A stretch of DNA of 64,000 nucleotides from Gemmatimonadaceae bacterium (GTDB taxonomy: Bacteria; Gemmatimonadota; Gemmatimonadetes; Gemmatimonadales; Gemmatimonadaceae). A model generated the notes under the pieces. The model searched no databases and had not been told where the DNA came from. It saw only the letters and a program-made list of their open reading frames with translations. Positions 12,752 through 33,482 of this stretch are shown here, piece after piece. The first letter of the stretch is position 1. Each line of letters opens with the position of its first letter. A program made the position numbers and the translations under genes. The stretch covers positions 124,001-188,000 of the forward strand of contig DATNEW010000026.1 in assembly GCA_035606695.1 (NCBI GenBank), read 5' to 3'.

Positions 12752-13549
12752 ATGTTGGAGACGCATGCGACCGATGCAGGTCCTTCTCCTGCTCTGGACG
12801 GTGGTAAGTACGTGTACTGTATCGTTCGAAGCGATCGCCCGCGCGACTTCGGCGCAATCGGGATAGGCGGCGGCCAGCGCGTCTTCACCGTCGCGTTTCA
12901 GGACCTGGCGGCCGTCGTCAGCGACACGCCGATCGTGATCTATGATCCGACGCGCGAAAACGTCCTTGCCCACGAGTTCGTGAACGAAACCGTGATGCGC
13001 GAGCATACCGTGATTCCGATGTCGTTCGGCACCGTCTTTCGCTCGGAAGACGACGTGACCGAGCTGCTACGCTCGACATATCAGGCGTTCAGCGACGTGC
13101 TCGAAAAGATGCAGGACAAGATCGAGTTCGGCCTCAAGGTGTTGTGGGACCGCGAGAAGGTCATCGCCACGATCGAGCGCGCGAACGACGAGATTAGCCG
13201 CCTCAAGGACGAGATCAGCCGGCACACGACGACGTCCACCTACTTCGCGCGCATGCAGCTCGGCCGGTTGATCGACGCGGCGCTCGAGGACATGAGCGCG
13301 CGATACGTCGCCGACATTCACGATGCCTTGAAGCCCGTCGCGGTGGCGAGCCGCTCGAACAAACCGATCGGCGACCGCATGATCCTCAACGCGGCGTTCC
13401 TGGTCGATCGCGCGCAGGAACAGGGCTTCGACGAGCGTGTGAAAGAAACCAGCCGCAAGTATGAAGACGTACTGTCCTTCAAGTACTCCGGTCCGTGGCC
13501 GCCGTACAACTTCGTGAACATCAAGCTCAAGCTCGAGAAGGCCGACTAA
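12752..13549 (+). CDS. GvpL/GvpF family gas vesicle protein
   Basis: This 265-residue protein has the two-part GvpL/F layout. The N-terminal domain (about residues 19-110) contains KYVYCIVRSD, LAAVVSDTPI, HEFVNETVMREHTVIPMSFG and VFRSEDDV. A helical stretch with heptad-like charge pattern follows (KVIATIERANDEISRLKDEI). The C-terminal domain contains ILNAAFLVDRAQEQGFDE and ends in SGPWPPYNFVNIKLKLEK. These motifs are diagnostic of the family, which takes part in gas-vesicle assembly. I placed the start at ATG 12752, preceded by GAGGT; the frame continues to 12629 but the extra residues do not fit the family. The histidine kinase gene starts 11 bp downstream, so the two are likely co-transcribed. 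Confidence 0.9.
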   Translation: MLETHATDAGPSPALDGGKYVYCIVRSDRPRDFGAIGIGGGQRVFTVAFQDLAAVVSDTPIVIYDPTRENVLAHEFVNETVMREHTVIPMSFGTVFRSEDDVTELLRSTYQAFSDVLEKMQDKIEFGLKVLWDREKVIATIERANDEISRLKDEISRHTTTSTYFARMQLGRLIDAALEDMSARYVADIHDALKPVAVASRSNKPIGDRMILNAAFLVDRAQEQGFDERVKETSRKYEDVLSFKYSGPWPPYNFVNIKLKLEKAD

Positions 13550-13560
13550 GCCGGTAAACG

Positions 13561-15795
13561 GTGGCATCCACCTTGGAATCGACGAGCCGCGGCCTTGCTC
13601 CGCAGCCGGGAGAGCGCAGTCATCTCGCGCTCCTTTCCGCGTTGGCCGAAGCGCCGGATTTGTCGGCGGCCGCCACGTTCCTGCTCAACGCGATCCTTTC
13701 GCTGACGAACGCGCGCCGTGCGTGCCTGCTGCAGTTCGATACCGGCGAGGAGCAACTCGCCCTTGCGGCGACCGTGGGCTTCGACGAGCCGCCCCCCGCC
13801 GAGCTGTCGATTGGAGAACGCGGTCATCCATGGATGGTCGCCACGCTCGCACTGTCGCCTGTGCTGAGCGAAGGACCGATGCGCGCCGGCGCTCGCGTGC
13901 CCTTCGACGCGTGGACCGCCTTGCCGATGCCGCGCCCGCACTATCGCGGCGCGCCGGCGATCTGGTCCGACTCGTACGCCGAGCAAGTGCTCGCCCCACT
14001 CGGCGCGCGACTGGTGCCGCTCGAGGATCGCCGTTTCAGCAGCGCACCAGGCGGGGTCGTCATCGTCGACGCGCTGCTGTCGGCGGCGATGCTGCAGGAA
14101 GTCGCGTCGGTCGTGATGTTCGCGGGGCCGGTGCTCTTCCGCGTCGCCGCCCATCTCGAGGCCGAGCGCGGCTACGATCGCGTGAGTCAGGAGCGCAGCC
14201 GCTTTCAGCAGATGGTGGACTCGCTTCCTGATCCCGTGGTGATCACGGATGCCTCGAACGACATCGTCGTGCAGAACAAGCGCGCCGAGCATCTGCTGTT
14301 CGTCACCGAAGAAGATTCACCGGGCCGGCGCCGCGCCGTCGAAGTGAACAATCTGCTGTTCAGCTCCTTTCTGTCGCGTGCGACGATCGCCGGCACGCCG
14401 ACGGGCGGCCCGCGCGAGCTCAATCTCGTCGATCCCGACGAAGGCCACGATCTTCTCTTCGAGGTGCTCGCCCACCCACTCGGCGAGCGCGTGGGTCCGG
14501 AGGACGCCGTGCTGTCGGTGCTGCGCGACGTCACCGACTTGCGCCGCGCCGCGCACGAGCTCGAGCGCCAGGTGCAGCGCGTGCGTCAGGCCGAGATCGA
14601 AGCGACGGACGAACGCGACCGTCTGAATTTGATCCTCGAGAACGTCGCCGATCCGATTCTCGTCACCGACAGCGCAACGAACATCATCCTGATGAACGAC
14701 GAGGCCGAGCAGCTGTTTCACGGGCCGCGCGGAATTCAGCAGAGCTATCGCGTATCGCAGGCGGTTCGGCAGAACGATACGAAGTTCACGTCGTTCATCT
14801 CCGACTTCGCCTTGACGCACGAACGCATGCGCCGCGAGCGCATGTCGCTCACGCATCCGACGTCGGCGATCGAGCTGCCGGTCGAAGTCGTGTCGGGCAA
14901 GATCTGGAACGAGCGCGGCGAACCGATCGCCATCGTGTCGGTGCTGCACGATCTGACGCAGCAGGCCGAGAACGAGCGCTTGTACGAAGCGCTGAAGCAG
15001 CTGAATAGTGAGCTCGAGGCACGCGTTCGCGCGGCGACGAAGGATCTCGCGCAGCAGAACGAGCGGTTGATGTGGCAATCGGAAGAGCTGGCGAAGGCGA
15101 ACAAGCTCAAGTCCGACTTCCTCGCGAACATGTCGCACGAGTTGCGCACGCCGCTCAACGCGGTGATCGGGTATTCGGCGCTGCTGCTCGACGGCATCGG
15201 CGGCGATCTGACGACCGGCCAGCGCGACTACATCACGCGCAGCCGCACCGCGGCGTCGCACTTGTTGTCGCTGATCAACGACATTCTCGATCTGGCGCGG
15301 ATCGAGGCCGGCAAGATGCCGGTGTACGTCGAGCCGGTGACGCTGCCCGAGCTCATTCGGGAAGTGGCGCAGCAGGTCGAGCCGATGGTGTCGACGAAGA
15401 AGCTCACGTTCACGCATCGCGTGAACCCGATGTGTCCCGAGATCCACACCGACAAGACGAAGGTGAAGCAGATCCTGCTCAACCTGTTGTCGAACGCCGT
15501 GAAATTCACGAACAAGGGCTCGGTGTCGCTCACCGCGGACTGTGGCGACGGCGTGGTGGTGCTCGAGGTGACGGATACGGGCGTGGGGATCAAGCCCGAG
15601 GAGATCGACACGATTTGGGAAGATTTCCGCCAGCTCGATCAGTCGCGCACGCGTTCGTATGGTGGAACCGGATTGGGATTGTCGATCACGCGGCGGTTGA
15701 CGCAGCAACTCGGCGGGCAGGTGGGCGTGCAGAGTGTGTTCGGGGACGGGACGACGTTCTGGGTACGCCTTCCGCTTTCGATAGAAAGTCGATAG
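13561..15795 (+). CDS. PAS-domain sensor histidine kinase (soluble)
   Basis: This 744-residue cytosolic histidine kinase starts with GTG. Residues about 20-200 form a GAF-like sensor (AATFLLNAILSLTNARRACLLQF). Two PAS domains follow: one starts around FQQMVDSLPDPVVITDAS, the other around LILENVADPILVTDSATN. A coiled coil (ERLYEALKQLNSELEARV) leads to the HisKA domain with phospho-His526 in MSHELRTPLN. The ATPase domain shows the N box (LLNLLSNAVKFT), G1 (VTDTGVGI) and G2 (GGTGLGLSI). No transmembrane helix is evident. It is 11 bp from a GvpL/F gene, which suggests that a signal for buoyancy or vesicle production is sensed here (inference). No response regulator is adjacent. Confidence 0.92.
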   Translation: MASTLESTSRGLAPQPGERSHLALLSALAEAPDLSAAATFLLNAILSLTNARRACLLQFDTGEEQLALAATVGFDEPPPAELSIGERGHPWMVATLALSPVLSEGPMRAGARVPFDAWTALPMPRPHYRGAPAIWSDSYAEQVLAPLGARLVPLEDRRFSSAPGGVVIVDALLSAAMLQEVASVVMFAGPVLFRVAAHLEAERGYDRVSQERSRFQQMVDSLPDPVVITDASNDIVVQNKRAEHLLFVTEEDSPGRRRAVEVNNLLFSSFLSRATIAGTPTGGPRELNLVDPDEGHDLLFEVLAHPLGERVGPEDAVLSVLRDVTDLRRAAHELERQVQRVRQAEIEATDERDRLNLILENVADPILVTDSATNIILMNDEAEQLFHGPRGIQQSYRVSQAVRQNDTKFTSFISDFALTHERMRRERMSLTHPTSAIELPVEVVSGKIWNERGEPIAIVSVLHDLTQQAENERLYEALKQLNSELEARVRAATKDLAQQNERLMWQSEELAKANKLKSDFLANMSHELRTPLNAVIGYSALLLDGIGGDLTTGQRDYITRSRTAASHLLSLINDILDLARIEAGKMPVYVEPVTLPELIREVAQQVEPMVSTKKLTFTHRVNPMCPEIHTDKTKVKQILLNLLSNAVKFTNKGSVSLTADCGDGVVVLEVTDTGVGIKPEEIDTIWEDFRQLDQSRTRSYGGTGLGLSITRRLTQQLGGQVGVQSVFGDGTTFWVRLPLSIESR

Positions 15796-16000: not shown

Positions 16001-16029
16001 TTGACAAACAGTCTCAGATGCGGAATAAT
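16001..16029 (+). promoter_or_regulatory. Predicted sigma-70 promoter of the BlaI-led operon
   Basis: TTGACA at 16001-16006 is a perfect -35 box. AATAAT at 16024-16029 matches the -10 box in four of six positions, and the spacing is the ideal 17 bp. The site is 38 bp upstream of the BlaI-type start codon and lies in a locally AT-richer stretch. It overlaps the palindromes described in the next entry, as expected for a repressed promoter. Confidence 0.75.
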
Positions 16030-16059
16030 CCGCACGTAGCGGAAAAACCCGCATCTGAG
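16013..16059 (+). promoter_or_regulatory. Candidate BlaI-type operator: nested palindromes overlapping the promoter
   Basis: CTCAGATGCGG at 16013-16023 is the exact reverse complement of CCGCATCTGAG at 16049-16059. Inside it are two copies of a GCGGA-x5-CCGCA-like site, at 16020-16034 (GCGGAATAATCCGCA) and 16039-16053 (GCGGAAAAACCCGCA), 19 bp apart. The first copy is centred on the -10 box. BlaI/MecI repressors bind dyads at their own promoters, so autorepression is the natural reading. The site does not resemble the classical TACA/TGTA operators, and the binding itself is inferred. Confidence 0.65.
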
Positions 16060-16066
16060 GTTTTGC

Positions 16067-16468
16067 ATGCCCAAGCGCAGTGCCGCGCTTCCGGCGCTCT
16101 CGCGCCGCGAACGGCAGGTCATGGACATTCTGTTCCGCCGCGGTGAAGCCACCGCCGCGGACGTCATGAACGACCTTCCCGATCCGCCCAGCTATTCCTC
16201 GGTGCGGTCGATTCTTTCGATACTCGTCGAGAAGGGACACGTGCGGTATCGCGAGGAAAATCTTCGCTACGTGTATCTCCCGGCGGCGAGTCCGGAGCAC
16301 GTGCGCGAGGAAGCGTTGCGCCACGTCATCCGCACCTTTTTTGACGGGTCGACGGATCAGACCATCGCCGCGGTGTTGCGGATGTCGGACAGCAAGCTGA
16401 GTGACGGCGACATCGCGCGGCTGCAGGAACGCATTCGACGCGCGCAACAGCGCGAGGAGGACGAATGA
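16067..16468 (+). CDS. BlaI/MecI-family transcriptional repressor (first gene of the propeller operon)
   Basis: This 133-residue protein matches the BlaI/MecI/CopY family in size and layout. It has an N-terminal winged helix (LSRRERQVMDILFRRGEATA ... SYSSVRSILSILVEKGHVRY) and a C-terminal helical dimerisation segment (HVIRTFFDGST ... IARLQERIRRAQQ). Such repressors are inactivated when a partner M56 membrane protease is triggered. Its stop codon overlaps the start of the M56 gene (ATGA at 16465-16468), the canonical BlaI-BlaR1 arrangement. The promoter upstream carries palindromes suited to autorepression. No beta-lactamase gene is nearby, so the controlled function is probably the downstream envelope genes. 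Confidence 0.92.
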   Translation: MPKRSAALPALSRRERQVMDILFRRGEATAADVMNDLPDPPSYSSVRSILSILVEKGHVRYREENLRYVYLPAASPEHVREEALRHVIRTFFDGSTDQTIAAVLRMSDSKLSDGDIARLQERIRRAQQREEDE

Positions 16469-18111
16469 GACTCGATCTGCTCGCGCCGCTGGGTCCCGTG
16501 GCGATCGTCATTCTCAAGACGACGCTGCTGCTCGCGCTTGGCGCGACTGGCGACCGGGTGCTGCATCGCGCACCGGCCGTGGCGCGGCATCTCGTGTGGC
16601 TTACCGCGATCGTCGGTGCGCTCCTCGTGCCCGTGTTCGACCGCTACATGCCGATGCGCGTCGCTGTGCTGCCCGCGCCGATGTCGACGCTCGTGTCCGC
16701 GACGGCGAATGGCGTCGGCGTCTCATCGCTGCCGAACGCCGACGGTGCGCCGCCGGCGAGCGATGCATCACGTTCCGTCTCGGCTCGCCTGACTTCATCC
16801 ACGCACAATCATCTGAGCATCACCCGTGTCTTGTTCTTCGCGTGGTTGATCGGCGCGCTGCTGCTGCTCGTGCGACTGCTCGCCGGACTGGCGACCGTTC
16901 GCCGGCTCATTCATCGCGCGCAGCCGCTGGAATCTACGGAGTGGCTACACGCGCTCCACGATGCCGCACGGCGGCTCGGCGTCGACGAATTGCCCCGTCT
17001 CGTGATGAGCCCGGACGTCGAGATGGCGTTCACGTTCGACACGCTTTCGCCGGCGATCGTGCTGCCTGTATCTGCAAAGGAGTGGACCGGAGAACGGCGC
17101 CGCGCGGTGCTCCTTCACGAGCTCGCCCATATTCGGCGTCGCGATCTCCTGGGCCACGGCATCGCCGCACTGGGTTGCGTGGCGTACTGGTTCAATCCAT
17201 TCATCTGGACCGCGGCGCGCAAACTGCGTATCGAGAGCGAGCTCGCGAGCGACGAGATGGTGCTGCGCGCCGGCGTGCGTCCCAGCGAATATGCGCAGCA
17301 CCTGCTCGACATGGTCACCAGCTTCGGTCGGCGCACGCCGTCGGTGGCGCTCGCGATGGCGCGGCCCAAGGAGTTCGAGGGGCGGCTCGTCGCGATCCTC
17401 GACCCGTTGCATCGCCGATCGACCGTCGCGTGGCCGCAGCGCGGCGCTGTCGTGGCGCTGTTTTCGATCATGGCGGTGAGCATCGGCGCCGCGGCGCCCG
17501 TTCGGCGCGTGGCGAAGACTCTCGTGGTAGAAGCACCGCCGGCCACCGCGTTACGAGACACGCCGGGCGACGCGAAAGCCGCGTCGCCGGGTCAAGACGC
17601 AGCCGTGACGCCACGCGACGTGCGGTCGCCACGCGCGCGTTCGGCGGGCCACACTTCACAACTCTCTCATTACGCCATCGCCTCACTGCTGCGCTTCGGC
17701 CCCGGTGGCATCATCAATCCGATGTTGATGCTCCTGCGCGATGCCGACTCCCTCCAGCTCAGCGGACCGCAAGCGGACAGCATCGCCACGCTCAACCGGA
17801 AGTACATGATCCGGCTGAACGAGATCTGGTCGCCGGTGTCGGCGTACTACTCCGTGCACTCGGGCGATGGTGATAGTTCTCTAAACAATCCCGTTCCGGA
17901 TGCGCCGGCCCGCACGGTGCGTGCGCTCGACGAGCTGGTCCCGGCCTTGGCCGGACTCCTGTCGTCACGCCAGCGAAGTTTGCTCCCGCCCGCCATTCGG
18001 TCGTATCTCGATCCCGCGAGCATCTCGTCTGCGACCGCGGGTCCCGATGGCGTATTCGTGCCTGCCGACCAACTCATCGGACTTCGCGGCCGAGCGAGAG
18101 GCGGGGGATGA
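16465..18111 (+). CDS. M56 BlaR1-like membrane metalloprotease/sensor with C-terminal two-LTXXQ domain
   Basis: This 548-residue protein has N-terminal membrane helices (VAIVILKTTLLLALGAT, HLVWLTAIVGALLVPV, LFFAWLIGALLLLVRLLAGL). The gluzincin motif HELAH is at 218-222, with a downstream ESELASDE segment supplying the third zinc ligand. A further helix around AVVALFSIMAVSIGA precedes an extracytoplasmic tail. Residues about 403-548 are not a penicillin-binding domain as in true BlaR1. They form a helical module with GGIINPM and two LTXXQ-type motifs (LSGPQ at 432-436, LSSRQ at 499-503). The same module ends the next gene product. The protein probably senses an envelope signal and cleaves the BlaI-type repressor (family knowledge plus inference). 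It overlaps both neighbours by 4 bp. Confidence 0.88.
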   Translation: MRLDLLAPLGPVAIVILKTTLLLALGATGDRVLHRAPAVARHLVWLTAIVGALLVPVFDRYMPMRVAVLPAPMSTLVSATANGVGVSSLPNADGAPPASDASRSVSARLTSSTHNHLSITRVLFFAWLIGALLLLVRLLAGLATVRRLIHRAQPLESTEWLHALHDAARRLGVDELPRLVMSPDVEMAFTFDTLSPAIVLPVSAKEWTGERRRAVLLHELAHIRRRDLLGHGIAALGCVAYWFNPFIWTAARKLRIESELASDEMVLRAGVRPSEYAQHLLDMVTSFGRRTPSVALAMARPKEFEGRLVAILDPLHRRSTVAWPQRGAVVALFSIMAVSIGAAAPVRRVAKTLVVEAPPATALRDTPGDAKAASPGQDAAVTPRDVRSPRARSAGHTSQLSHYAIASLLRFGPGGIINPMLMLLRDADSLQLSGPQADSIATLNRKYMIRLNEIWSPVSAYYSVHSGDGDSSLNNPVPDAPARTVRALDELVPALAGLLSSRQRSLLPPAIRSYLDPASISSATAGPDGVFVPADQLIGLRGRARGGG

Positions 18112-21100
18112 TCGATCGATTCCGGGGTACGCTCGCAATGGCTCTTGTCATTGCGACGGCCGCGCTCACGCCTAAATCCGCCCTCGGCGCCCAGCAAGCC
18201 GACGTCATTCGCGGCCGAGTGAGCGCGTCCGGTACCGACGAGCCGCTGAACGGCGCGACGGTGATCGCGACGACGCTCTCCGGCGGCGTCAATCGCACCG
18301 GGCGCACCGATCGCAACGGGCGCTACACGATCACGTTCCCGGGCGGGGAGGGTGACTACTTCATCACCGTGCGCGCGATCGGCTACGTGCCGCGGCGCTT
18401 CGAGCTCAAGCGTACGGCTGATGAGGATATTCTCATTGGGGACGTCCGGCTGACGCTTTCGTCTTCAACACTCGACACCATGGTCACGCTCGGCAAGCGC
18501 GACCGGCCGCAGCGCACCGACAGCGCGAGCGACATCAGCGGGCTCGATCGCGTCGTGAACACGTCCAACGTGGCGATCGAGAATCTCGGCAACCTGACGG
18601 TGATGGCGGCGACGACGCCGGGTTTGCTCTTCATCCCCGGCGTCGACGGCGATCCCTCCGGCTACTCGGCGCTCGGCCTCGATCCAACGCAGAACTCGCT
18701 GTCGCTCAACGGCATGAACAGCGTTGCCACCGACCTGCCGCGCGACGGTGACTTCACGGTGAGTGTCGCGCTGTCGCCGTACGACGTATCGCAGGGCCAG
18801 TTCAGCGGCGGCCACACGAACGTGCGAATCAGTTCCGGATCGAACTTCATTCGGCGCACCGGCAGTCTGCTGCTCAACACGCCGCCGCTCGAGTGGACGG
18901 ACCGTGTGGGGCACTCGCTCGGCCAGGAGTACACCAACGCCAATCTCGGCGGCGGCATGTCGGGACCAATTCGCTTCGACGAAGCGTTTTACAACTTCTC
19001 ATATCAGCTCGGCCGCTCGTCGAATGACTTGCACACGCTGCTCAACACCGATCCGCTCGGACTGCGCACCGTCGGGATTTCAACGGACTCGGTCGCGCGG
19101 CTCGTCGGCATTCTCGGCAACGCACGAGTGCCCGCGACGGTGGACCGCTTTCCGAGCAGCCGGCTGGGCGATCAGGGAGTGGTGCTCGGGAGCTTCGACT
19201 TCACGCCGCCGACGTCCAACAGCGGACAGGCGTTCAACGTCACGATGAACGGCGCGTGGAATCGCATGTCGCCGGCACAGTTGTCCACGACCGGCGTGCC
19301 GTCGTCGGCGTTCGACAACACGAGCTGGAACAGCGGGGTTCAGGCGCACCATTCGGCGTACTACGGTTTCGTCCTCAGCGAAAGCGGCCTTTCGGCGTCG
19401 GCGGCGCGGCGATTCTCGACGCCATACCTCGATCTGCCGTCTGGGCGGGTCTTGGTGGCCTCGACGTTCGACGATGGCACGGGCGGCGTGACCCCGGTGT
19501 TGTTCGGCGGCGCGTCCACGGAATTCCGGTCGACCACGACGGTGCTCGAGGCGACGAACCAACTGTCATGGTTCAGCGAAGACAACAAGCATCGCGTGAA
19601 GTTGACGACGGACCTGCGCCGCGACGGGTACGACGCCGACCAGGGATCGAACACGCTCGGCACCTTCACGTTCAACTCGCTCGCCGACCTGGCGGCTGGA
19701 CGTGACGCGTCGTTCACGCGACAATTGTCGACGATCAGCTCGCACGAAGGCGAATGGCTCGGCAGCGTCGCGCTCGGCGACGCGTATCGCCCCACGCACG
19801 ATCTCCAGATCACATATGGCGCGCGGCTCGACATGAACCATTTCGTCGACTCGCCGGCGGCCAACGCGGACGTGAGCCGCCTATTCAATATCTCTAATAC
19901 CGCGCTGCCGAGCCGTGCCGTCGTCAGTCCGCGACTCGGATTCGCGTGGACATACGGGACGACACCCGAGATCGCGGCCTTCAGCGGTGCGGCGCGGGCG
20001 CCGCGCGCCGTGGTTCGTGGCGGCATCGGTGTGTTTCAGGGTACGCCGAACCCGTCGCTCGTGAGCCAGCCGTTGGTGACGAACGGACTCGCCACAGGCG
20101 TTCAGCAGGTGAGCTGCACCGGCGCAGCCGCGCCGGTCCCGAATTGGAGTGCATTCGCGAACACCGCGAACATTCCAAGCGCCTGTGCCGACGGGACGAC
20201 CGGTACCGCGTTCGCGAGCTCGGCGCCGAACGTCACGCTCTTTTCGCCGAACTACGCGGCGCCGCGCAGCGTGCGCTCAAATCTTCAGTGGAGCGGCGCG
20301 GTGCTGGATAATCGCGCGCTGCTCACCATCGGCGGCATCTATTCGATCAACCAGCAGCTGCCGGGATTCGTCGATCTCAACCTGCAGCCCACGTCGCGCT
20401 TCACACTGGCCGACGAGGCGCGGCGCCCGGTGTTCGTCGATCCGTCGAGCATCGTGCCGGGGACCGGCGCGATCGCGCTGCGCGATGGGCGCGTCGCGGC
20501 GCAGTTCAATCACGTGACCGAGCTGCGCTCGGAGCTCTCTTCGACAACTCGGCAACTGCAGTTCTCGCTGGTACCCGTTGGCGCGAACACGCACTACACG
20601 TGGGGAATTACCTACACGCTGAACAGCGTACGCGAGCGCACGAATGGATTCTCCAGCACCGTCGGCGATCCGTTCGCGATCGCGACGGGTCGGGCGTCAT
20701 TCGATTGGCGGCATCAGCTTCAAGGGAACGTCGGGTATAACCTGTTCGACGTCATCCGCCTCAACTGGTTTCAAACTTTTCTGTCCAGGTTGCCGTACAC
20801 GCCGGTTGTTGCGGGCGACGTGAACGGCGACGGGTATGCGTCGAACGATCGCGCATTCGTCTTCGATCCAGCGCATGCCTCGGACCCCGCGGTCGGCGAG
20901 GCGATGTCGAGTCTCCTGGCGAACAGTTCGCCCGGCGCGCGAAGCTGCCTGACTCGCCAGCTCGGCGCGCTCGCGGCGCGCAACAGTTGCGAGGCACCGT
21001 GGACGTCGACCGCGACGCTCCGGGTGGACTTCAATCCGATCGCCGTGCGGATGCCAGAGCGTACGATGCTCAGTTTCTCGATCTCTAATCCGCTCGCCGG

Positions 21101-21842
21101 CGCAGACCTGCTGCTGCACGGCCAGAATCACATTCACGGCTGGGGACAGTTCGTCCTGCCCGACAATCAGTTGTTGTACGTGCGCGGGTTCGACCCGCAG
21201 GCGCGGCGATTCACCTATCAGGTGAATCCACGTTTCGGCAACACCAGCCCGGCGGCGAGCGCGCTGCGCAGTCCCGTGGCGATCACGGCGCTCGTGCGAG
21301 TCGATCTCGGCCCGACGCGCGAGCGCCAGGCACTCACACGCACGCTCGATCAGGGACGCACCACGGCGGGACCAAAGGCCACTGCCGCCGAGTTGCGGGC
21401 GATGTACGGAATGGGCGGCTTGATCAATCCCATGGCGACCATTCTGCGCAGCGCGGACACGCTCAAGCTCACCGGACCGCAGGCGGACAGCATCGCGACG
21501 TTGAATCGCTGGTATCTCGTGCGACTCGATTCGATCTGGGGGCCGGTGGTTCGCACGTACGCATCGCTGCCGGAGCGCTACAGCCAGCACGATGCGTACG
21601 TGCGATACGTGCACGCGCGCGAGGCATCCGTCGATCTGTTGATCAAGCTGGCACCGATGCTCAGCGGCGTGTTGACGCCGGCCCAACGGCGCAAGCTGCC
21701 GCCGTTGACGGCGTCGCATCTCGACAAACGGTTTCTCCTGGCGGTGCGATCCGGCACCCCGAATCTCTCGGCGCCGGTGTTCCCGCCGCCGGCCGGCGTG
21801 GCGGCCGAGCGTGGCGGTGGACGGGGCGGGGGAGGTCGCTGA
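18108..21842 (+). CDS. TonB-receptor-like outer-membrane protein with C-terminal two-LTXXQ (Spy/CpxP-like) domain
   Basis: This 1244-residue protein has a signal peptide (cleavage near SALGAQQ) and a carboxypeptidase-regulatory domain at about 30-115 (IRGRVSASGTDEPLNGATVI). A plug-like region follows with LSLNGMNSVATDLPRDGDF, where a receptor shows the LDG and IEV segments. A long barrel region with many aromatic-rich strands runs to about residue 1080. The final 150 residues are an added module: GGLINPM, LTGPQADSIATLNR (LTXXQ at 1121-1125), a helix RLDSIWGPV, LTPAQRRKLPP (LTXXQ at 1189-1193) and a Gly/Arg tail. The same module ends the M56 sensor. The ATG overlaps the M56 stop codon. Ligand unknown; the appended domain suggests a chaperone-like or sensing role at the outer membrane. 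Confidence 0.82.
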   Translation: MIDRFRGTLAMALVIATAALTPKSALGAQQADVIRGRVSASGTDEPLNGATVIATTLSGGVNRTGRTDRNGRYTITFPGGEGDYFITVRAIGYVPRRFELKRTADEDILIGDVRLTLSSSTLDTMVTLGKRDRPQRTDSASDISGLDRVVNTSNVAIENLGNLTVMAATTPGLLFIPGVDGDPSGYSALGLDPTQNSLSLNGMNSVATDLPRDGDFTVSVALSPYDVSQGQFSGGHTNVRISSGSNFIRRTGSLLLNTPPLEWTDRVGHSLGQEYTNANLGGGMSGPIRFDEAFYNFSYQLGRSSNDLHTLLNTDPLGLRTVGISTDSVARLVGILGNARVPATVDRFPSSRLGDQGVVLGSFDFTPPTSNSGQAFNVTMNGAWNRMSPAQLSTTGVPSSAFDNTSWNSGVQAHHSAYYGFVLSESGLSASAARRFSTPYLDLPSGRVLVASTFDDGTGGVTPVLFGGASTEFRSTTTVLEATNQLSWFSEDNKHRVKLTTDLRRDGYDADQGSNTLGTFTFNSLADLAAGRDASFTRQLSTISSHEGEWLGSVALGDAYRPTHDLQITYGARLDMNHFVDSPAANADVSRLFNISNTALPSRAVVSPRLGFAWTYGTTPEIAAFSGAARAPRAVVRGGIGVFQGTPNPSLVSQPLVTNGLATGVQQVSCTGAAAPVPNWSAFANTANIPSACADGTTGTAFASSAPNVTLFSPNYAAPRSVRSNLQWSGAVLDNRALLTIGGIYSINQQLPGFVDLNLQPTSRFTLADEARRPVFVDPSSIVPGTGAIALRDGRVAAQFNHVTELRSELSSTTRQLQFSLVPVGANTHYTWGITYTLNSVRERTNGFSSTVGDPFAIATGRASFDWRHQLQGNVGYNLFDVIRLNWFQTFLSRLPYTPVVAGDVNGDGYASNDRAFVFDPAHASDPAVGEAMSSLLANSSPGARSCLTRQLGALAARNSCEAPWTSTATLRVDFNPIAVRMPERTMLSFSISNPLAGADLLLHGQNHIHGWGQFVLPDNQLLYVRGFDPQARRFTYQVNPRFGNTSPAASALRSPVAITALVRVDLGPTRERQALTRTLDQGRTTAGPKATAAELRAMYGMGGLINPMATILRSADTLKLTGPQADSIATLNRWYLVRLDSIWGPVVRTYASLPERYSQHDAYVRYVHAREASVDLLIKLAPMLSGVLTPAQRRKLPPLTASHLDKRFLLAVRSGTPNLSAPVFPPPAGVAAERGGGRGGGGR

Positions 21843-23125
21843 TGCGGCCGATTCCAGTTCTCTCATTGGCGGTGTGCGTCGCGGCCGGCGCTCGTGCGCA
21901 GCAAGCGCCTGCGATTCGACAGATCGGGAAACTCGAGGCCGTATCGGCGGACTCCGCCGGCCTGGCGAGCGTCTTCTCCGCGGTCGGCCTCACCGGCAAC
22001 CGAATCTTGGTCAACGACGTCATCGCGCGTCGGATCGTGCTCCTGGATTCGACGCTCGGCCATGCCGTCGTGGTTGCGGATACGACGAGTGCGACCGCCG
22101 ACGCATACGGGCAAAGCCTAGCTTCGCTGATCGGATATCGCGGAGACAGTGCGCTTCTCATCGTCCCCTCGACGTTGTCGATGTTCGTGATCGGTCCGAC
22201 CGGAAACATCGCGCGGACGATGGCCATTCCGCGCGCGCGCGACGTCGCGGGCCTCAAGCCGGGTCGATGGGCGGCGCCCGGCATCGATTCGCGCGGGCGG
22301 TTGATCTATCTCGGTCACGCGAGCGGCTTGCCCGGCGTGATTTCGCTGTCTGGCAAACTCCAGGTCTATGCGGATGGAGCCCCGACGCCGATCGGCGAGT
22401 CGCTGTTGCAACAATTACGAACGTCGGACACCGCGGCCGTCGTGCGAGCCGACCCGGCGACCCGATTGCTCGACACCGTCGCATGGGTGAAGACGTCGAA
22501 CTATCGTCGCGGCTTCAGGGCGGACGCGCAGGGATTCGTGACGGCGATGACGTTGACGCCGGACGCATTGCCGCTCATCGACGAGTGGACGGTTCTGCCC
22601 GACGGCACGCTGGCGATCGTGCGTGGACGCGACTTTCATGTCGACTGGGTCGACCCGGCGGGGCGCGTGACGTCGTCGCCGAAGATCGCGTTCGATTGGC
22701 GGCGTGTGGATGATGCGCAAAAGCGCGCCCTGATCGATTCGGTCGTCGCGCATTGGCAGGGGCAATTCGACGAGGACGCGCGTCAACAGAGCGGTGCCTC
22801 AGGGAGCTCGGGCCGTGGACGCGGCGGCGCGGAAGCGATTCCGACGATCGCGCTGGCCGAGTCGACCGCGGAACTGCCCGATTATTTGCCGCCGTTCTCC
22901 GATTTCTCCATCCATCCCGACAGCGAGGGCAACGTGTGGATCCGCACGACGACCGTCGTCGACGGCAGACCGGTCTACTACGTGGTGAACAGGAGCGGTG
23001 CGCTCGTCGATCGCGTGCAGCTGCCCGCGTTTCGCGAGATCGCCGGGTTCGGGAATGGCGTACTCTACATGACGTTCGAGGATCGCACCGGGCGTGTGCA
23101 CCTCGAGCGGGCGCGAATCCATTGA
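21842..23125 (+). CDS. Secreted beta-propeller protein, tandem copy 1 of 5
   Basis: This 427-residue secreted protein has a signal peptide ending near ARAQQ and starts with the family signature AIRQIGKLE. Propeller-blade motifs recur: NRILVNDVIARRIVLLDSTL, SMFVIGPTGNIARTMAIP, IDSRGRLIYLG, DGTLAIVRGRDFHVDW and GNVWIRTT. The end is DRVQLPAF ... HLERARIH. A Gly/Ser/Arg-rich linker lies at about residues 318-331, followed by LPDYLPPF. The start codon shares one base with the upstream stop codon (TGATG), so it is translationally coupled to the TonB-receptor-like gene. I infer a six-bladed-type propeller acting in the periplasm or at the outer membrane; no catalytic motif is evident. It is the most diverged of the five copies. 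Confidence 0.78.
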   Translation: MRPIPVLSLAVCVAAGARAQQAPAIRQIGKLEAVSADSAGLASVFSAVGLTGNRILVNDVIARRIVLLDSTLGHAVVVADTTSATADAYGQSLASLIGYRGDSALLIVPSTLSMFVIGPTGNIARTMAIPRARDVAGLKPGRWAAPGIDSRGRLIYLGHASGLPGVISLSGKLQVYADGAPTPIGESLLQQLRTSDTAAVVRADPATRLLDTVAWVKTSNYRRGFRADAQGFVTAMTLTPDALPLIDEWTVLPDGTLAIVRGRDFHVDWVDPAGRVTSSPKIAFDWRRVDDAQKRALIDSVVAHWQGQFDEDARQQSGASGSSGRGRGGAEAIPTIALAESTAELPDYLPPFSDFSIHPDSEGNVWIRTTTVVDGRPVYYVVNRSGALVDRVQLPAFREIAGFGNGVLYMTFEDRTGRVHLERARIH

Positions 23126-23132
23126 GGGTGTT

Positions 23133-24389
23133 ATGAGAATACTCATCACGGCCGCCGTCGCCTTCGCCGGCGCGGCGCTCGGTGCCCAGGCGCCGCCGCC
23201 AGTGCGGCAGATCGGCCGCCTGGAGCACGTCACGACCGATTCGCTGGCCAGTATCGCGTCGGCGCTCGTGATGCCCGACGGCGGTGTGCTCGTGAACGAT
23301 CGCATCGCCCATCGCGTGTTGCGGTACGATTCGACGCTTGCGCACGCGACCGTCGTTGCCGATACGACGGCCGCCACGGCGAACATCTACGGACAACGTC
23401 CGGCCAATCTGATCCATTATCGCGGCGATAGCGCGCTGTTGATCGATCAAACGTCGCTGTCGATGTTTGTGATCGGACCGCGCGGAGCGGTTGGACGAGT
23501 GATGGCCATTCCACGCGCCAACGACGCGCAAGCGATGATCGCCGCCGGCAGCGGCGTCGACGCGCGCGGACGGCTCATCTACTCCAACGCGCTGAGCCTG
23601 TTGCCCGGCATTCTCATGCTCGGCCGCGGGGATCTCATTCTCAAGGACCAGATGACGCGCTGGGCCGAGCGGACGGATTCGGCGCCGCTGCTCCGCGTCG
23701 ATCCGCCGACGCGGCAACTGGACACGATTGCGTGGCTTCGAATACCAAAACTCGATCGTGAGCTGAAACTCGACGACGCGGGACACTTGACGTCGATCGT
23801 CAACGTGCCGGATCCGCTGCCGGTGGTCGATCATTCGATCGTGTTGCACGACGGTACCGTCGCGATCGTGCGCGGGCGCGACTATCACGTCGACTGGCTG
23901 GGCGTTGACGGAACATGGAGCTCCACGCCGAGGATGGCGTTCGATTGGCGGCGTCTGGACGACGCGCGCAAGCAGGCGTTGATCGACTCGACCGTCAAGA
24001 GCTGGCAGGCGCAGTACGATCGCGTCGTGAACGGTGGCGGACGGAGCGGTCGAGGCGGCGGCGACCTCGCGCCGATTGTCGCGGTCGCACCGCCGCTCTC
24101 GAGCGTGTTCGATTACGTGCCGCCGTTTCCGTCGCAAGCCGGTGGGCCAAACCTGATCAACTCCGGTCCGATCCTCAACGCGGACGCGGACGGCAATCTG
24201 TGGATTCGAACGACGAACGTCGTCGCCGGCCGGCCGGTGTTCGACGTCGTCAGCCGGCGCGGCGAAGTGATCGACCGAGTGCAGTTGCCGGCGTTTCGCA
24301 GCCTCGCGGGGTTCGGCCCCGGCGTGATTTACATGGCGGTGAAGGACTCCGCGGGAATCGTCCGGCTCGAGCGAGCGCGGATCAGGTGA
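23133..24389 (+). CDS. Secreted beta-propeller protein, tandem copy 2 of 5
   Basis: This 418-residue paralogue has a signal peptide ending near ALGAQ and then PPPVRQIGRLEHVTTDSLAS, nearly identical to copies 3 and 4. It shows blade motifs GGVLVNDRIAHRVLRYDSTL, SMFVIGPRGAVGRVMAIP, DGTVAIVRGRDYHVDW, FDWRRLDDARK and GNLWIRTTNVVAGRPVFDVV. The Gly-rich linker sits at about 300-310 (GGGRSGRGGG), before VFDYVPPFPS. I chose ATG 23133 because it begins the signal peptide and has GAGGGTG upstream; it lies 7 bp after the copy 1 stop codon. The C-terminal signature is DRVQLPAFRSLAGFGPGV. Function unknown; the conserved mature N-terminus suggests a shared partner. Confidence 0.78.
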   Translation: MRILITAAVAFAGAALGAQAPPPVRQIGRLEHVTTDSLASIASALVMPDGGVLVNDRIAHRVLRYDSTLAHATVVADTTAATANIYGQRPANLIHYRGDSALLIDQTSLSMFVIGPRGAVGRVMAIPRANDAQAMIAAGSGVDARGRLIYSNALSLLPGILMLGRGDLILKDQMTRWAERTDSAPLLRVDPPTRQLDTIAWLRIPKLDRELKLDDAGHLTSIVNVPDPLPVVDHSIVLHDGTVAIVRGRDYHVDWLGVDGTWSSTPRMAFDWRRLDDARKQALIDSTVKSWQAQYDRVVNGGGRSGRGGGDLAPIVAVAPPLSSVFDYVPPFPSQAGGPNLINSGPILNADADGNLWIRTTNVVAGRPVFDVVSRRGEVIDRVQLPAFRSLAGFGPGVIYMAVKDSAGIVRLERARIR

Positions 24390-24391
24390 CC

Positions 24392-25705
24392 ATGCGAAAA
24401 CTCGCACGTATGGTGGTGAGCGGATTCGCGAGTGCCGCGTTGCTTGCGATCGAGGCCGGTGCGCAACGCCCCGCGGTTCGCCAGCTCGGGCGGCTCGAGC
24501 ACGCGACGCATGATTCGCTCGCCAGCGCCGCGAACGCGCTGCAACTCCCTGGCGGCCGAGTGCTGGTGAACGACATCACCGGCCGCCGGTTGCTGCTGTT
24601 CGACTCGACGCTCGCTCATCCGATCGTCGTCGCCGATACGACGGGCGCGACATCCAACGCGTATGGTCGCGATGCCGGCACGCTCGTCCGCTATCGCGGC
24701 GACACGTCGATCTTCGTCGACATCGCATCGCTGTCGATGCTCGTCATCGATCCGTCGGGAAAGATCGTACGTGTGAAGGCGGTGCCGAATCCGGACGAGG
24801 CGCAATTTCTCATCGGGAGTGTGTTCGGTCTGCCGGGCTTCGACGCCGCGGGCCGATTGATTTATCACGGGCCTGCCGGGATGGAAGGCACGTTCATCCT
24901 GTGCTGCGTCGAGCGTCCCGCGCGCATGGGTGACGGATCGCAGCGCTCGCGGCCCGTGCCGAAGCCGGACAGTGGATTCCTGGTGCGTGTCGATCTCGAG
25001 ACGCGCGCTTCCGATACACTGACAGCCATCAAGCTCGAATGGGAGAAGCAGCGCATTCGGCTCGACGAGCAAGGGTACGTGCAAGCGATCGAACGCGTGC
25101 GCATGCCGTACCCGTATGTCGATGCGTGGGCGGTGCTCATCGATGGTTCGCTCGCTGTCGTGCGTGGTCGAGACTACCACATCGACTGGCTCGGCACCGA
25201 CGGCCGATGGAGCGCGTCGCCGAAGCTCACGTTCGACTGGCGTCGTGTGGATGACGCGCGCAAACTCGCCGTCATCGACTCGAGTGCAAGAGCCGAGCAG
25301 GCGATCGACGAGCGTCTCAATACCCGGTCGGCTGCGCGCCCCGGCGGTGGCGGCGGTGGGCGCGGCGGCGGTGGCGGAGGTGGCGGCGGTGCGCGGCCCG
25401 GACGCGGCGGCACTCCGATTCCCGAAGTGACCGCGCGCGCCGACGTATCGGACGTCCCCGACTACGAGCGCCCGTTCGAGGAAGGCGGCGCGATCGCTGA
25501 CGCGGACGACCATCTCTGGATTCGCACGACCGCCATGGCGGACGGCCGGCCGGTGTATGACGTGGTCGATCGTCGCGGCGAGCTGGTCGATCGCGTGCAG
25601 TTGCCGGCATTTCGTACGATCGCGGGATTCGGTCCCGGTGTGGCGTACACGGCGGTCAAGGACCCGGCCGGTCTCGTCCATCTCGAGCGGATTCGTATCC
25701 ACTAG
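24392..25705 (+). CDS. Secreted beta-propeller protein, tandem copy 3 of 5
   Basis: This 437-residue paralogue starts with ATG 24392, 2 bp after the copy 2 stop codon; the frame is open further upstream inside copy 2 but has no signal peptide there. The signal peptide ends near EAGAQ, followed by RPAVRQLGRLEHATHDSLAS. Blade motifs include RVLVNDITGRRLLLFDSTL, VDIASLSMLVIDPSGKIVRV and VIDGSLAVVRGRDYHIDW-like segments (ILIDG in place). It has the most extreme linker of the family, an almost pure glycine run with a few Arg at about residues 315-340, then DVPDYERPF. Copies 3 and 4 share the CC pair in ILCCVE / VRCCIG, absent from the others, so they are probably the most recent duplicates. Confidence 0.78.
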   Translation: MRKLARMVVSGFASAALLAIEAGAQRPAVRQLGRLEHATHDSLASAANALQLPGGRVLVNDITGRRLLLFDSTLAHPIVVADTTGATSNAYGRDAGTLVRYRGDTSIFVDIASLSMLVIDPSGKIVRVKAVPNPDEAQFLIGSVFGLPGFDAAGRLIYHGPAGMEGTFILCCVERPARMGDGSQRSRPVPKPDSGFLVRVDLETRASDTLTAIKLEWEKQRIRLDEQGYVQAIERVRMPYPYVDAWAVLIDGSLAVVRGRDYHIDWLGTDGRWSASPKLTFDWRRVDDARKLAVIDSSARAEQAIDERLNTRSAARPGGGGGGRGGGGGGGGGARPGRGGTPIPEVTARADVSDVPDYERPFEEGGAIADADDHLWIRTTAMADGRPVYDVVDRRGELVDRVQLPAFRTIAGFGPGVAYTAVKDPAGLVHLERIRIH

Positions 25706-25713
25706 GGCCTGAT

Positions 25714-27012
25714 ATGAGAATGCTCATTACAGCACTCGTCATGGCTCCCGCGCTAAGGGCGCAGATGCCCGCCGTTCGCCAGATCGGCCGCCTGGAACAC
25801 ATGACGACGGATTCGCTGGCCAGCGCCACCGGCGCGATTCCGCTGCCCGATGGCCGCGTCCTGGTGAACGATGCGCGTGGCCGGCGGCTCCTGGTCTTCG
25901 ATTCGACGCTGTCGCACCCGATCGTCATTGCCGACACGACGGACGCCACGTTGGAGGCGTACAGCCGGCAGGTCGGCTCGTTGATTCACTTCCGCGGTGA
26001 TTCGGCATTGTTCGTCGACGTCGGATCGCTGTCGATGATCGTCGTCCGCCCCGACGGCCGGCTGGGGCGCATCCTTGCCGTGCCGCACCCTGATGACGCG
26101 CAGCATCTGTTCCCGGTTTTTGGACTTCCCGGATTCGACGTGCACGGCCGTCTCGTCTATCACACCGCCGCTGGACCGGAAGGCATCGTCGTGCGGTGCT
26201 GTATTGGCACGTTGCGCGCGACGGACGCGAGCGGCCGCGCCATGACCGGCAAGCAGAAGATTCCAAAGCCGGACAGCGCGTTCCTGGTCGCGGTCGATCT
26301 CTCCGCGCGCCGCACGGACACGATCGCGGCGATCAAGATCGCATACACGCCACAGCGATTCGTGTTCGACAACGACGGATACAACACCGCGATCGAGCAG
26401 ACGTACCGTCCGCTCCCCGTCGTCGACGCGTGGGCGGTGCTGAGCGATGGGACCGTCGCGATCGTCCGCGGGCGGGATTTTCACGTCGATTTCCTGGCGG
26501 CCGGCGGTCGCTGGACGTCTGCGCCGAAGCTGCCGTTCGATTGGCAGCGACTCGACGACGCGCGCAAGATGGCGATCATCGACTCGGCGACGAAGGAAGA
26601 TCAAACGCGGAGGGACAGCCTGGCGCGCCGGCGTGCGACTCAGTCTGGGCCGGGACGCGGCGGCGGTGGACGCGGCGGCGGAGGGCGTAGTGGCGGCGTC
26701 GGCAGTGGGATGGGCGGCCAAGAAGTTCCAGGAATAATCGTCCGCGCCGAGATCCAGGACGTGCCCGATTACGTGCCGCCGTTCGGAGCGAACGCGGCGT
26801 TCGCCGACATGAACGACAACCTGTGGATTCGCACGTCGACGCTCGTCGGTGGTCGACCTGTGTACGACGTCGTGAATCGACGGGGCGAACTGATCGATCG
26901 GGTGCAATTGCCGAGCTTCCGCACGATTGCCGGGTTTGGCCGCGACGTCATCTACATGGCCGTGCAGGATCCGACCGGAGCCGTTCACCTCGAGCGTGCT
27001 CGCATCCATTAA
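25714..27012 (+). CDS. Secreted beta-propeller protein, tandem copy 4 of 5
   Basis: This 432-residue paralogue lies 8 bp after copy 3 and has AGGG before its ATG. The short signal peptide ends near ALRAQ, then MPAVRQIGRLEHMTTDSLAS. It has the blade motifs RVLVNDARGRRLLVFDSTL, SMIVVRPDGRLGRILAVP, DGTVAIVRGRDFHVDF, FDWQRLDDARKMAIIDSA and NLWIRTSTLVGGRPVYDVV. A Gly/Arg linker at about 314-334 is followed by DVPDYVPPFG. Like copy 3 it carries a CC pair in the middle blade. The family lacks lipobox cysteines, so the protein is probably soluble in the periplasm or secreted. Its role is unknown and inferred only from the operon. Confidence 0.78.
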   Translation: MRMLITALVMAPALRAQMPAVRQIGRLEHMTTDSLASATGAIPLPDGRVLVNDARGRRLLVFDSTLSHPIVIADTTDATLEAYSRQVGSLIHFRGDSALFVDVGSLSMIVVRPDGRLGRILAVPHPDDAQHLFPVFGLPGFDVHGRLVYHTAAGPEGIVVRCCIGTLRATDASGRAMTGKQKIPKPDSAFLVAVDLSARRTDTIAAIKIAYTPQRFVFDNDGYNTAIEQTYRPLPVVDAWAVLSDGTVAIVRGRDFHVDFLAAGGRWTSAPKLPFDWQRLDDARKMAIIDSATKEDQTRRDSLARRRATQSGPGRGGGGRGGGGRSGGVGSGMGGQEVPGIIVRAEIQDVPDYVPPFGANAAFADMNDNLWIRTSTLVGGRPVYDVVNRRGELIDRVQLPSFRTIAGFGRDVIYMAVQDPTGAVHLERARIH

Positions 27013-27019
27013 GGGCAAT

Positions 27020-28321
27020 ATGAGATTGCTAATTCTTGTCATTGTGCTGACGGCATCGGCAGCGGACGCGCAGGCGCCGCCGCAAATTCGCCAGATCGGT
27101 GTGCTCGAGCACATGACGCCCACGTCTATGGTTCTCGCGAGCGTGACGAATGCGCTGGCGATGCCCGGCGGACGCGTGTTGATCAACGACACGCGCGGCC
27201 GGCGAGTGCTCCTGCTCGATTCGACGCTCTCGCGCGCCACCGTCGTCGCCGACTCGACGGATGCCACGGCGAACACCTACAGCTACAGCTGGTCGACGCT
27301 CGTGCGCTATCGTGGCGACACCGCGCTGCTCATGGTGCCATCCTCGCTGTCGATGTTCATCATCACGCCCGCCGGCGTTCTCGGGCGCATCATGGCGATG
27401 CCGCGTCCCGAAGAAGCGCCGATGCTCGCCGCGAGCTGGGGCGGCGTGTCCGCGTTCGATCCGCGCGGACGACTCGTGTACTTCGGCGGGCGCGGCGTGC
27501 TTGGCGGTGTTCTGACGCTGCGCACCGGCATGCCGCTGGTGGAGAACGGCAAGCTGACCGAGGTCGGCGCGATGCTCAATCACAACATGCCCGACTTCCT
27601 GCGGCCGGACGGTGTGCGGCTCGATTCGAGCGTCATCGTACGTGTCGATCCGCAGACGCGCGGGCTCGACACACTCGCGTGGCTTCACATTCCGAAATTC
27701 CGCAGGCAAATCAAGCTCGACGAAACCGGCTCGGCGAGCGCGATCGAGACGACGCCCGATCCGATGCCGATCATCGACCAGTGGATACTCCTGCGCGACG
27801 GGACGCTCGCCGTGGTGCGCGGCCGCGATTTTCACATCGATTGGCTCGATCCATCGGGCCACTGGTCGTCGTCGCCGAAAATTCCGTTCGACTGGCAGCA
27901 CGTCGACGACGCACGCAAGCGGCAGTTGATCGACTCGGCGGTCGCGCAACGGCAAGACCAATATGAGCGTGTCGCCGGCGGCCGAGGCAGCGGTGCGGGT
28001 CGCGGCGGCGTCGCGGGTCGGTATCCGTCGCCGACGCCAAACATCGCCGTGCGGCCGGGGCTCGCTGAGGTGGCCGATTATGCTCCGGCGTTCGGCGAGC
28101 ATTCGGTCGAGAGTGACGAGGACGGCAATCTCTGGATTCGCACGACGCAAATCGCGGACGGTCGCCCGGTGTACGACGTGGTGAATCGCCGCGGTGTGGT
28201 AATCGACCGCGTCCAATTGCCAAGGTTTCGCAGTGTGGCGGGGTTCGGGCCCGGTGTGATCTACATGGCGGTGATCGATCCCAACGGAGTGGTGCGGTTG
28301 GAGCGGGCGAGACTGCGCTAG
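27020..28321 (+). CDS. Secreted beta-propeller protein, tandem copy 5 of 5 (end of operon)
   Basis: This 433-residue paralogue starts 7 bp after copy 4 with AGGG ahead of the ATG. The signal peptide ends near AADAQ, then APPQIRQIGVLEHMTPTSMV. Blade motifs are RVLINDTRGRRVLLLDSTL, SMFIITPAGVLGRIMAMP, FDPRGRLVYFGG, DGTLAVVRGRDFHIDWLD and GNLWIRTTQIADGRPVYDVV. A linker with Gly, Arg and Ala at about 319-333 precedes VADYAPAFG. The C-terminal DRVQLPRFRSVAGFGPGV matches the family. It is the last gene of the co-directional series, and the following genes are on the other strand. I saw no clear terminator in the short gap downstream. Confidence 0.78.
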   Translation: MRLLILVIVLTASAADAQAPPQIRQIGVLEHMTPTSMVLASVTNALAMPGGRVLINDTRGRRVLLLDSTLSRATVVADSTDATANTYSYSWSTLVRYRGDTALLMVPSSLSMFIITPAGVLGRIMAMPRPEEAPMLAASWGGVSAFDPRGRLVYFGGRGVLGGVLTLRTGMPLVENGKLTEVGAMLNHNMPDFLRPDGVRLDSSVIVRVDPQTRGLDTLAWLHIPKFRRQIKLDETGSASAIETTPDPMPIIDQWILLRDGTLAVVRGRDFHIDWLDPSGHWSSSPKIPFDWQHVDDARKRQLIDSAVAQRQDQYERVAGGRGSGAGRGGVAGRYPSPTPNIAVRPGLAEVADYAPAFGEHSVESDEDGNLWIRTTQIADGRPVYDVVNRRGVVIDRVQLPRFRSVAGFGPGVIYMAVIDPNGVVRLERARLR

Positions 28322-33080: not shown

Positions 33081-33482
33081 ATGTCCGCCCACCCCGTCCC
33101 CACGCCCGCCGAGCTCGAGCTCCTGCGCCTGCTGTGGCGTCACGGGCCCCAGACCGTGCGCGACGTGCACGAGCGCATCAAGCGACGGCGCGACATCGGA
33201 TACACGACGGTCCTCAAGACGCTGCAGGTCATGGCGGAGAAAGGCTTGGTCACGCGCGACGAATCGTCGCGCTCGCACGTGTACGCCGCGGCCGTGCACG
33301 AAACGGCCGTGAAGCGGCGCTTGGTGAGCGACCTGGTCGAGAGCGCCTTCGACGGCTCCGCCGCCGGTCTCGTGATGCAAGCCCTGTCCACGCGGCGTGC
33401 ATCGCCGGAAGAGATCAAGGAAATCCGCCGACTGCTCGACACGATGAAGCGCCGCGAGGAAGAGGAGGAGCGCGATGATTGA
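33081..33482 (+). CDS. BlaI/MecI-family transcriptional repressor (second pair)
   Basis: This 133-residue repressor has a winged helix (PTPAELELLRLLWRHGPQTV, RDIGYTTVLKTLQVMAEKGL) and a C-terminal dimerisation region (LVSDLVESAFDGSAAGLVMQ ... IKEIRRLLDTMKRREEEE). The GYTTVLKTLQ helix is typical of BlaI/CopY DNA recognition. It begins 8 bp after the predicted -10 box and palindrome, so the leader is very short. It overlaps the M56 gene by 8 bp. Two independent BlaI/M56 pairs in one window suggest that this regulator type has expanded in the genome. Confidence 0.93.
   Translation: MSAHPVPTPAELELLRLLWRHGPQTVRDVHERIKRRRDIGYTTVLKTLQVMAEKGLVTRDESSRSHVYAAAVHETAVKRRLVSDLVESAFDGSAAGLVMQALSTRRASPEEIKEIRRLLDTMKRREEEEERDD

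Follow-up and report, generated by a model that had tools for sequence, protein, structure and literature searches.

An eight-gene BlaI/M56 operon of a Gemmatimonadaceae bacterium encodes a TonB-dependent receptor, five exported beta-propellers and a membrane protease whose sensor domain is related to the receptor tail

The operon described here lies in a 64,000-nucleotide (nt) stretch of DNA, referred to below as the window, on contig DATNEW010000026.1 of the Gemmatimonadaceae bacterium assembly GCA_035606695.1 (the genome is G000 in the locus labels). Eight open genes, all on the + strand and spanning positions 16067-28321, encode a BlaI/MecI-family repressor, a BlaR1-type membrane protease of the M56 family, a TonB-dependent receptor and five exported beta-propeller proteins. 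The region that follows the last membrane helix of the protease, where BlaR1 carries its sensor, is a homologue of the C-terminal tail of the receptor specified by the adjoining gene. The features of the locus are as follows (aa, amino acids).

16001 to 16029, + strand: promoter, TTGACA (16001-16006), 17-nt spacer and AATAAT (16024-16029), agreeing with the consensus in 11/12 positions
16013 to 16059, no strand assigned: putative operator region, two dyads within a 21-nt inverted repeat, from a repeat search and comparison of layouts
16067 to 16468, + strand: BlaI/MecI-family repressor, 133 aa (PF03965)
16465 to 18111, + strand: M56 (BlaR1-type) membrane protease, 548 aa (PF05569, helices, HELAH, BlaR1 alignment)
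17647 to 18036, + strand: sensor domain of the M56 protein, ~residues 402-522, a relative of the receptor-tail domain by homology to the receptor tail
18108 to 21842, + strand: Oar-like TonB-dependent receptor, 1244 aa, with signal peptide, CarboxypepD_reg, plug, barrel and C-terminal helical tail (Pfam matches of the family, TbpA similarity of the plug)
21357 to 21749, + strand: C-terminal tail domain of the receptor (tail profile)
21842 to 23125, + strand: exported beta-propeller 1, 427 aa
23133 to 24389, + strand: exported beta-propeller 2, 418 aa
24392 to 25705, + strand: exported beta-propeller 3, 437 aa, with Gly-rich insert
25714 to 27012, + strand: exported beta-propeller 4, 432 aa (the version that was modelled starts at 25720 and has 430 aa)
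27020 to 28321, + strand: exported beta-propeller 5, 433 aa

The genes are tightly packed. The BlaI and M56 genes overlap by 4 bp (ATGA), the M56 and receptor genes by 4 bp, and the receptor and propeller 1 genes by 1 bp, while the gaps between propellers 1-2, 2-3, 3-4 and 4-5 measure 7, 2, 8 and 7 bp, respectively. No beta-lactamase or penicillin-binding protein (PBP) gene is found among the eight. A preliminary description of this DNA had proposed eight co-directional genes spaced by no more than 8 bp, a strong promoter with an operator-like palindrome at their head, a BlaI/M56 pair leading a set of exported proteins, and the absence of a beta-lactamase or PBP gene. The open frames and junction sequences, the promoter with its overlapping inverted repeat and the gene content agree with this description, and the protease at the head of the operon was found to lack a penicillin-sensor domain (see below).

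Between 15.7 and 29.2 kb the + strand contains a single sigma-70-like site, TTGACA-17-AATAAT at 16001-16029 (11/12 matches). This site and a 21-nt inverted repeat (16013-16033/16039-16059) overlap. Within the repeat, TGCGGAATAATCCGCA (TGCGGA-N4-TCCGCA, 16019-16034) covers the -10 element, and 19 bp further on, at 16038-16053, the dyad recurs in imperfect form as AGCGGAAAAACCCGCA. Taken alone, the perfect 6-N4-6 dyad is unremarkable (p ~0.04 per 150-nt upstream region, as estimated by shuffling). What makes the operator credible is that the same 16-bp layout (TGNNN-N6-NNNCA) recurs, in a similar place and with other bases, upstream of other BlaI genes that belong to this subfamily and come from the genus. 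The outer five pairs are exact in TGTTGAAAAATCAACA, which is present at C23 of this genome and at C23 of G002, and in TGCTATTTTCTTAGCA (G002 C2), and four of the five are kept in TGCTGGTTTTCTAGCA (G005). A shared layout with differing bases is what one would expect of paralogues of different specificity. Several more distant BlaI genes are preceded by dyads of the CTACTAG type. The exact TGCGGAN4TCCGCA sequence occurs at one other site in the genome, inside an mlaD-like coding sequence, and sites with at most one mismatch numbered 27, not far above the 16 for a reversed-pattern control; these sites give no grounds for claiming a wider operator regulon. The anatomy of the locus makes control of the operon by BlaI well supported, and the scarcity of the exact site fits a dedicated repressor that would control only its own operon.

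The repressor, one of eight BlaI proteins encoded in this genome, matches PF03965 with 88.7 bits (cut-off 22.6, E 4.4e-25); its closest paralogue is the C23 BlaI of the same genome (60% identity), and a search against the PDB returned no match at E 0.001. The M56 protein matches PF05569 with 121.8 bits (cut-off 31, E 4.1e-35). It has four hydrophobic helices followed by a C-terminal region, and the catalytic site is in place: HELAH lies between helices 3 and 4, at residues 218-222, and the protease part aligns across the zinc site to the BlaR1 structures 8exs/8exp (E 0.0012). Membership of the two proteins in the BlaI and M56 families would be compatible with a classical response to beta-lactams or cell-wall damage that happens to have unusual outputs. 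However, Pfam recognizes no PBP/beta-lactamase-like or penicillin-binding sensor domain in the M56 protein, its score against the NCBIfam BlaR1 model NF000326 is 94.7 bits at a cut-off of 400, and the gene content noted above also speaks against such a response, which we find scarcely credible.

In the BlaI-BlaR1 and MecI-MecR1 systems of Staphylococcus aureus and Bacillus licheniformis a repressor of the same kind is combined with an M56 zinc protease that has a C-terminal sensor after the last membrane helix, and dyads cover the promoter (PMC7593790). The sensor there is class-D beta-lactamase-like, whereas the one described here is related to a receptor tail, and the operon has a TonB-dependent receptor and propellers as its outputs. 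It is already known that BlaI proteins can have outputs beyond beta-lactamase: BlaI of Mycobacterium tuberculosis (Rv1846c) controls the Rv1303/ATP synthase operon and ftsQ (PMC12565901). The Rv1846c regulon is scattered, in contrast to the present case, in which the genes predicted to be regulated form the repressor's own operon and encode envelope proteins. The nearest M56 relatives (for example at C23 of this genome and in G002 and G005; 39-46% identity) have HEAT-like repeats, recognized by inspection, as their sensor region, which suggests that the sensor module of these proteases is swappable. These HEAT-repeat-type M56/BlaI pairs are the closest relatives of the window's pair, but they do not adjoin a receptor-propeller pair. 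HEAT-repeat-like M56 proteins at L039:7130-9259, L186:6916-8850 and L187:6520-8925 have unusual C-terminal ends of low complexity, of which PWPWPWPWPRPMP and RPRPRPRPRPRPNGW are examples.

The homology between the M56 sensor and the tail of the adjoining receptor, which the preliminary description had not noticed, extends over ~120 residues (~402-522 of the M56 protein) with 42% identity, and the run GPQADSIATLN is identical in the two. An independent single-sequence search of the sensor against receptor tails gave E 1e-23; with the tail profile, which includes the M56 copy, the value was E 4e-39. In this genome the profile detected nine copies of the domain, namely the M56 sensor and eight receptor tails, each of the latter terminating an open frame of ~1210-1320 codons; all eight frames encode receptors of the same family. 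The tail profile gave no match to any of ~40 further M56 proteins, taken from this genome and from relatives. Searches with the whole M56 protein covered 179 family genomes and 395 genomes from the phylum. Among the M56 proteins close to this one, to which the listed matches are confined, relatives matched the protease part and no second tail fusion on this M56 type came to light. An attempt to place the M56 copy in the tree of tail domains failed because of its long branch.

The tail domain is all-helical in the model (pLDDT, the predicted local distance difference test score, 82.6). Its commonest Pfam match is LTXXQ (PF07813), which is weak (13/64 members, best E 0.003), and its top PDB sequence match is Spy (E 0.56). 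Foldseek gave no significant match with the sensor domain. VIA-align ranked CnrX at the top, with NccX and a related Salmonella protein also high; the Z values, up to 6.5, are below the trusted level for helical bundles and may reflect a common helical arrangement. Because these three weak lines (Pfam, PDB sequence and structure) agree, a Spy/CpxP/CnrX-like identity of the tail domain is likely, if short of proof. CpxP, Spy, ZraP and CnrX are helical periplasmic proteins with LTxxQ-like motifs, to which the similarity remains sub-threshold; two of them, CpxP and CnrX, modulate sensors of the envelope or of metals. The present domain differs from them in occurring as a fusion, with a protease sensor in one case and with receptors in the others.

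The weak but consistent resemblance to LTXXQ, Spy and CnrX/NccX is also what one would expect if the M56 protein were an envelope-stress sensor. Its tail-like domain would then bind misfolded envelope proteins in the manner of Spy or CpxP and activate the protease, the operon would be one output, and the homology to the receptor tail would reflect the reuse of a chaperone-like module rather than a matched partner. In Escherichia coli, CpxP modulates its sensor in the periplasm (PMC6737893). On the other hand, no fold match reaches the trusted level, a perfect operator is present at one promoter with no wider stress regulon visible, and elsewhere in this genome the domain is found only on receptors. 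We regard this explanation as unlikely, although a serious candidate. The high ranks of CnrX and NccX in the structural alignment could alternatively point to a metal sensor, the domain binding a transition metal as CnrX does and the receptor importing a metal complex. Among 64 homologues, however, no His or Cys column was conserved above 50%, and a single column was mostly Met. The lack of conserved His or Cys argues against a metal sensor, which we consider very improbable.

The receptor protein alone has a Pfam match only to CarboxypepD_reg. At the level of its family, CarboxypepD_reg was matched by 20/20, Plug by 18/20 and OMP_b-brl_4 by 15/20 members, and the plug region of the receptor resembles TbpA (E 4e-6), so that its initial designation as a TonB-receptor-like protein holds for the family. 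We infer that it transports a ligand in a TonB-dependent manner; the functions of receptor and propellers alike are predicted ones. The five propellers, which had been called paralogous and exported, are indeed paralogues (~45-58% identical where compared) and carry N-terminal hydrophobic export signals as judged by inspection, and none of them matched a Pfam or NCBIfam family above cut-off. The propeller fold was established by modelling for one of them: the AlphaFold model of propeller 4 is a confident propeller (pLDDT 87.5, predicted template modelling score 0.86), and NHL/DFPase-type propellers were its top Foldseek matches (E ~1e-8). The modelled propeller has a long helix and, after it, an insert rich in Gly and Arg, which is also present in its paralogues (24392-28321); similar RGGG runs form the ends of the receptor and of the M56 sensor.

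The conserved unit of the operon, found across Gemmatimonadota, is the tailed receptor directly followed by one propeller. All but a few of the 80 named loci show this arrangement, as do most loci from relatives, and of the 179 family genomes 137 contain the tail domain. In the loci inspected, the neighbours of the pair vary and include housekeeping genes, from which we conclude that the receptor-propeller pair stands alone. Most loci keep a single propeller. The preliminary description had proposed conservation of gene order in other Gemmatimonadota as a check, and here the outcome was negative: conservation of the eight-gene order is not supported, and BlaI/M56 genes adjoin the pair in two loci only. 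In a six-frame search of the 120 loci that were fetched, the only BlaI/M56 genes immediately preceding a receptor-propeller pair, apart from those of the window, were at C40 of G004, a genome of the same genus; in G001 (C143) a BlaI/M56 pair lies nearby without adjoining it.

The BlaI proteins of the window and of G004 are 23% identical and the M56 proteins 22%, and each is closer to other paralogues. The receptors of the window, G004 and G046, in contrast to these non-orthologous pairs, belong to one clade (100 in the Shimodaira-Hasegawa-like approximate likelihood ratio test, SH-aLRT), and BlaI/M56 control was therefore gained or replaced at least twice at this receptor clade. In G046, the nearest receptor relative, an ABC-F gene is found upstream instead of BlaI/M56. 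A 1878-aa version of the G046 receptor with a long N-terminus proved to be a gene-calling artefact over this ABC-F gene, which is on the opposite strand. The five propellers of the window form one clade (99) and the two of G004 another (100), the two together being a clade (100) in a tree that leaves out the incomplete propeller of G046. The separate clades indicate that propellers were amplified independently in the two BlaI-linked operons. The M56 protein of G004 C40 (L040:808-2898) has two similar LTPxQ...LTNDAD segments with a long Gly-rich stretch between them.

The rarity of this arrangement raises the possibility that BlaI/M56 is a passenger, that is, a shuffled pair which came to lie in front of an existing receptor-propeller pair and acquired the tail domain by recombination with a receptor gene; regulation would then occur, but the apparent link to sensing would have no biological meaning. 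That of 120 loci only the G004 cassette has BlaI/M56, unrelated to those of the window, and that the nearest receptor relative has an ABC-F gene in their place, would be in line with such a history. Chance is an unlikely cause, however, of two separate arrivals at one receptor clade, both in tight operons and with extra propellers: taking 8 BlaI genes among ~5000 genes and ~15 pairs in the genus, we arrive at a rough estimate of ~3 in 10,000 for two adjacent pairs by chance. The domain is, moreover, in frame with its conserved core kept. A passenger role thus appears distinctly unlikely.

The interpretation that we prefer, with middling confidence, is that this is a self-repressed operon built on the receptor-propeller pair, in which a BlaI/M56 proteolytic switch would read a partner or the state of the system through its receptor-like tail domain. 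BlaI dimers would sit on the two 16-bp dyads that cover the -10 element and the start, shutting off the only promoter. The M56 protein would reside in the inner membrane as BlaR1 does, with the zinc protease on the cytoplasmic side and the C-terminal domain in the periplasm. The barrel of TonB receptors ends on the periplasmic side, so both tail domains are probably periplasmic. A change in the sensor domain would activate the protease, BlaI would be inactivated by cleavage, and receptor and propellers would be made. These steps follow BlaI/BlaR1, whose protease lies on the cytoplasmic side and whose C-terminal domain points to the outside, activation resulting in cleavage of BlaI (PMC7593790). 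Since the sensor is homologous to the receptor tail, it most likely reads what the tail reads, which may be a partner common to both, for example a propeller or the ligand that is imported, or else the tails. The supply of the receptor/propeller machine would thereby be matched to need; the nearest known logic is the titration of CpxP in the Cpx system of E. coli (PMC6737893). The proposal of nutrient sensing or envelope stress in the preliminary description was a guess, which the relationship of the sensor to the receptor tail appears to narrow.

More tentatively, the M56 protein may be a mimic of its own target: its copy of the receptor tail would compete or pair with the receptor for the partner, and transcription would follow the pool of free partner. 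We know of no description of such a sensing logic for BlaR1-type proteins. Several observations weigh against shared-partner sensing. The exact M56-tail fusion was seen in one genome only. Its copy of the domain has diverged, with an end branch of 4.04 in the tail-domain tree, and is no closer to the receptor of its own operon than to other receptors, so that a ligand shared at present is not assured. Homology of the LTPxQ repeats in the G004 sensor to the tail domain found no support from hhalign or Pfam.

In a literature search that left many subscription papers outside its reach, we found no account of an M56 protein with a sensor homologous to the tail of the receptor under its control. 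The sensor of this BlaI/M56 pair is recognizable, and the question of what it senses becomes a binding test among a few named proteins. The operon also points to a Gemmatimonadota-wide receptor-propeller pair for which we found no described function, with the tailed receptor in most genomes of the family and a propeller outside the Pfam families. SusC/SusD-type pairs and PqqU (YncD)/YncE likewise consist of a TonB-dependent receptor encoded with a soluble partner; yncE lies beside yncD in E. coli. PqqU imports pyrroloquinoline quinone (PQQ) and is common in Gemmatimonadetes (PMC12124388), and a YncE-type propeller occurs with a TonB receptor in xoxF3 clusters (PMC10875860). The present pair differs from these systems in the CarboxypepD_reg domain, long barrel and tail of its receptor and in a propeller family that has no Pfam entry.

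Some further features of the window and of this genome may be mentioned. Directly upstream of the operon (12752-15795) lie a gas-vesicle gene (GvpL/GvpF) and, after it, a gene for a histidine kinase with a PAS domain, and a gas-vesicle cluster may lie further upstream. A second, distantly related BlaI/M56 pair is encoded at 33081-35172; its BlaI is 27% identical to the first, dyad-like repeats surround a TTGACA, its M56 protein has a different C-terminal region with no Pfam match, and the next gene (35178) is ArgZ-like. At 37939-40230, on the - strand, an exported CarboxypepD_reg + Plug protein of 763 aa is encoded by a gene overlapping that of a 388-aa protein with a lipoprotein-like start. 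At C15 of this genome, a BlaI gene without an adjacent M56 gene is divergent from a single distant propeller gene, which is followed by a DUF1800 gene (L034:9849-13305). The gap between the C15 BlaI and propeller genes contains TGTTAATCAATTAGCA and TGCTAGCGTACTCGCA, near-palindromes of the same 16-bp layout as the dyads of the operon.

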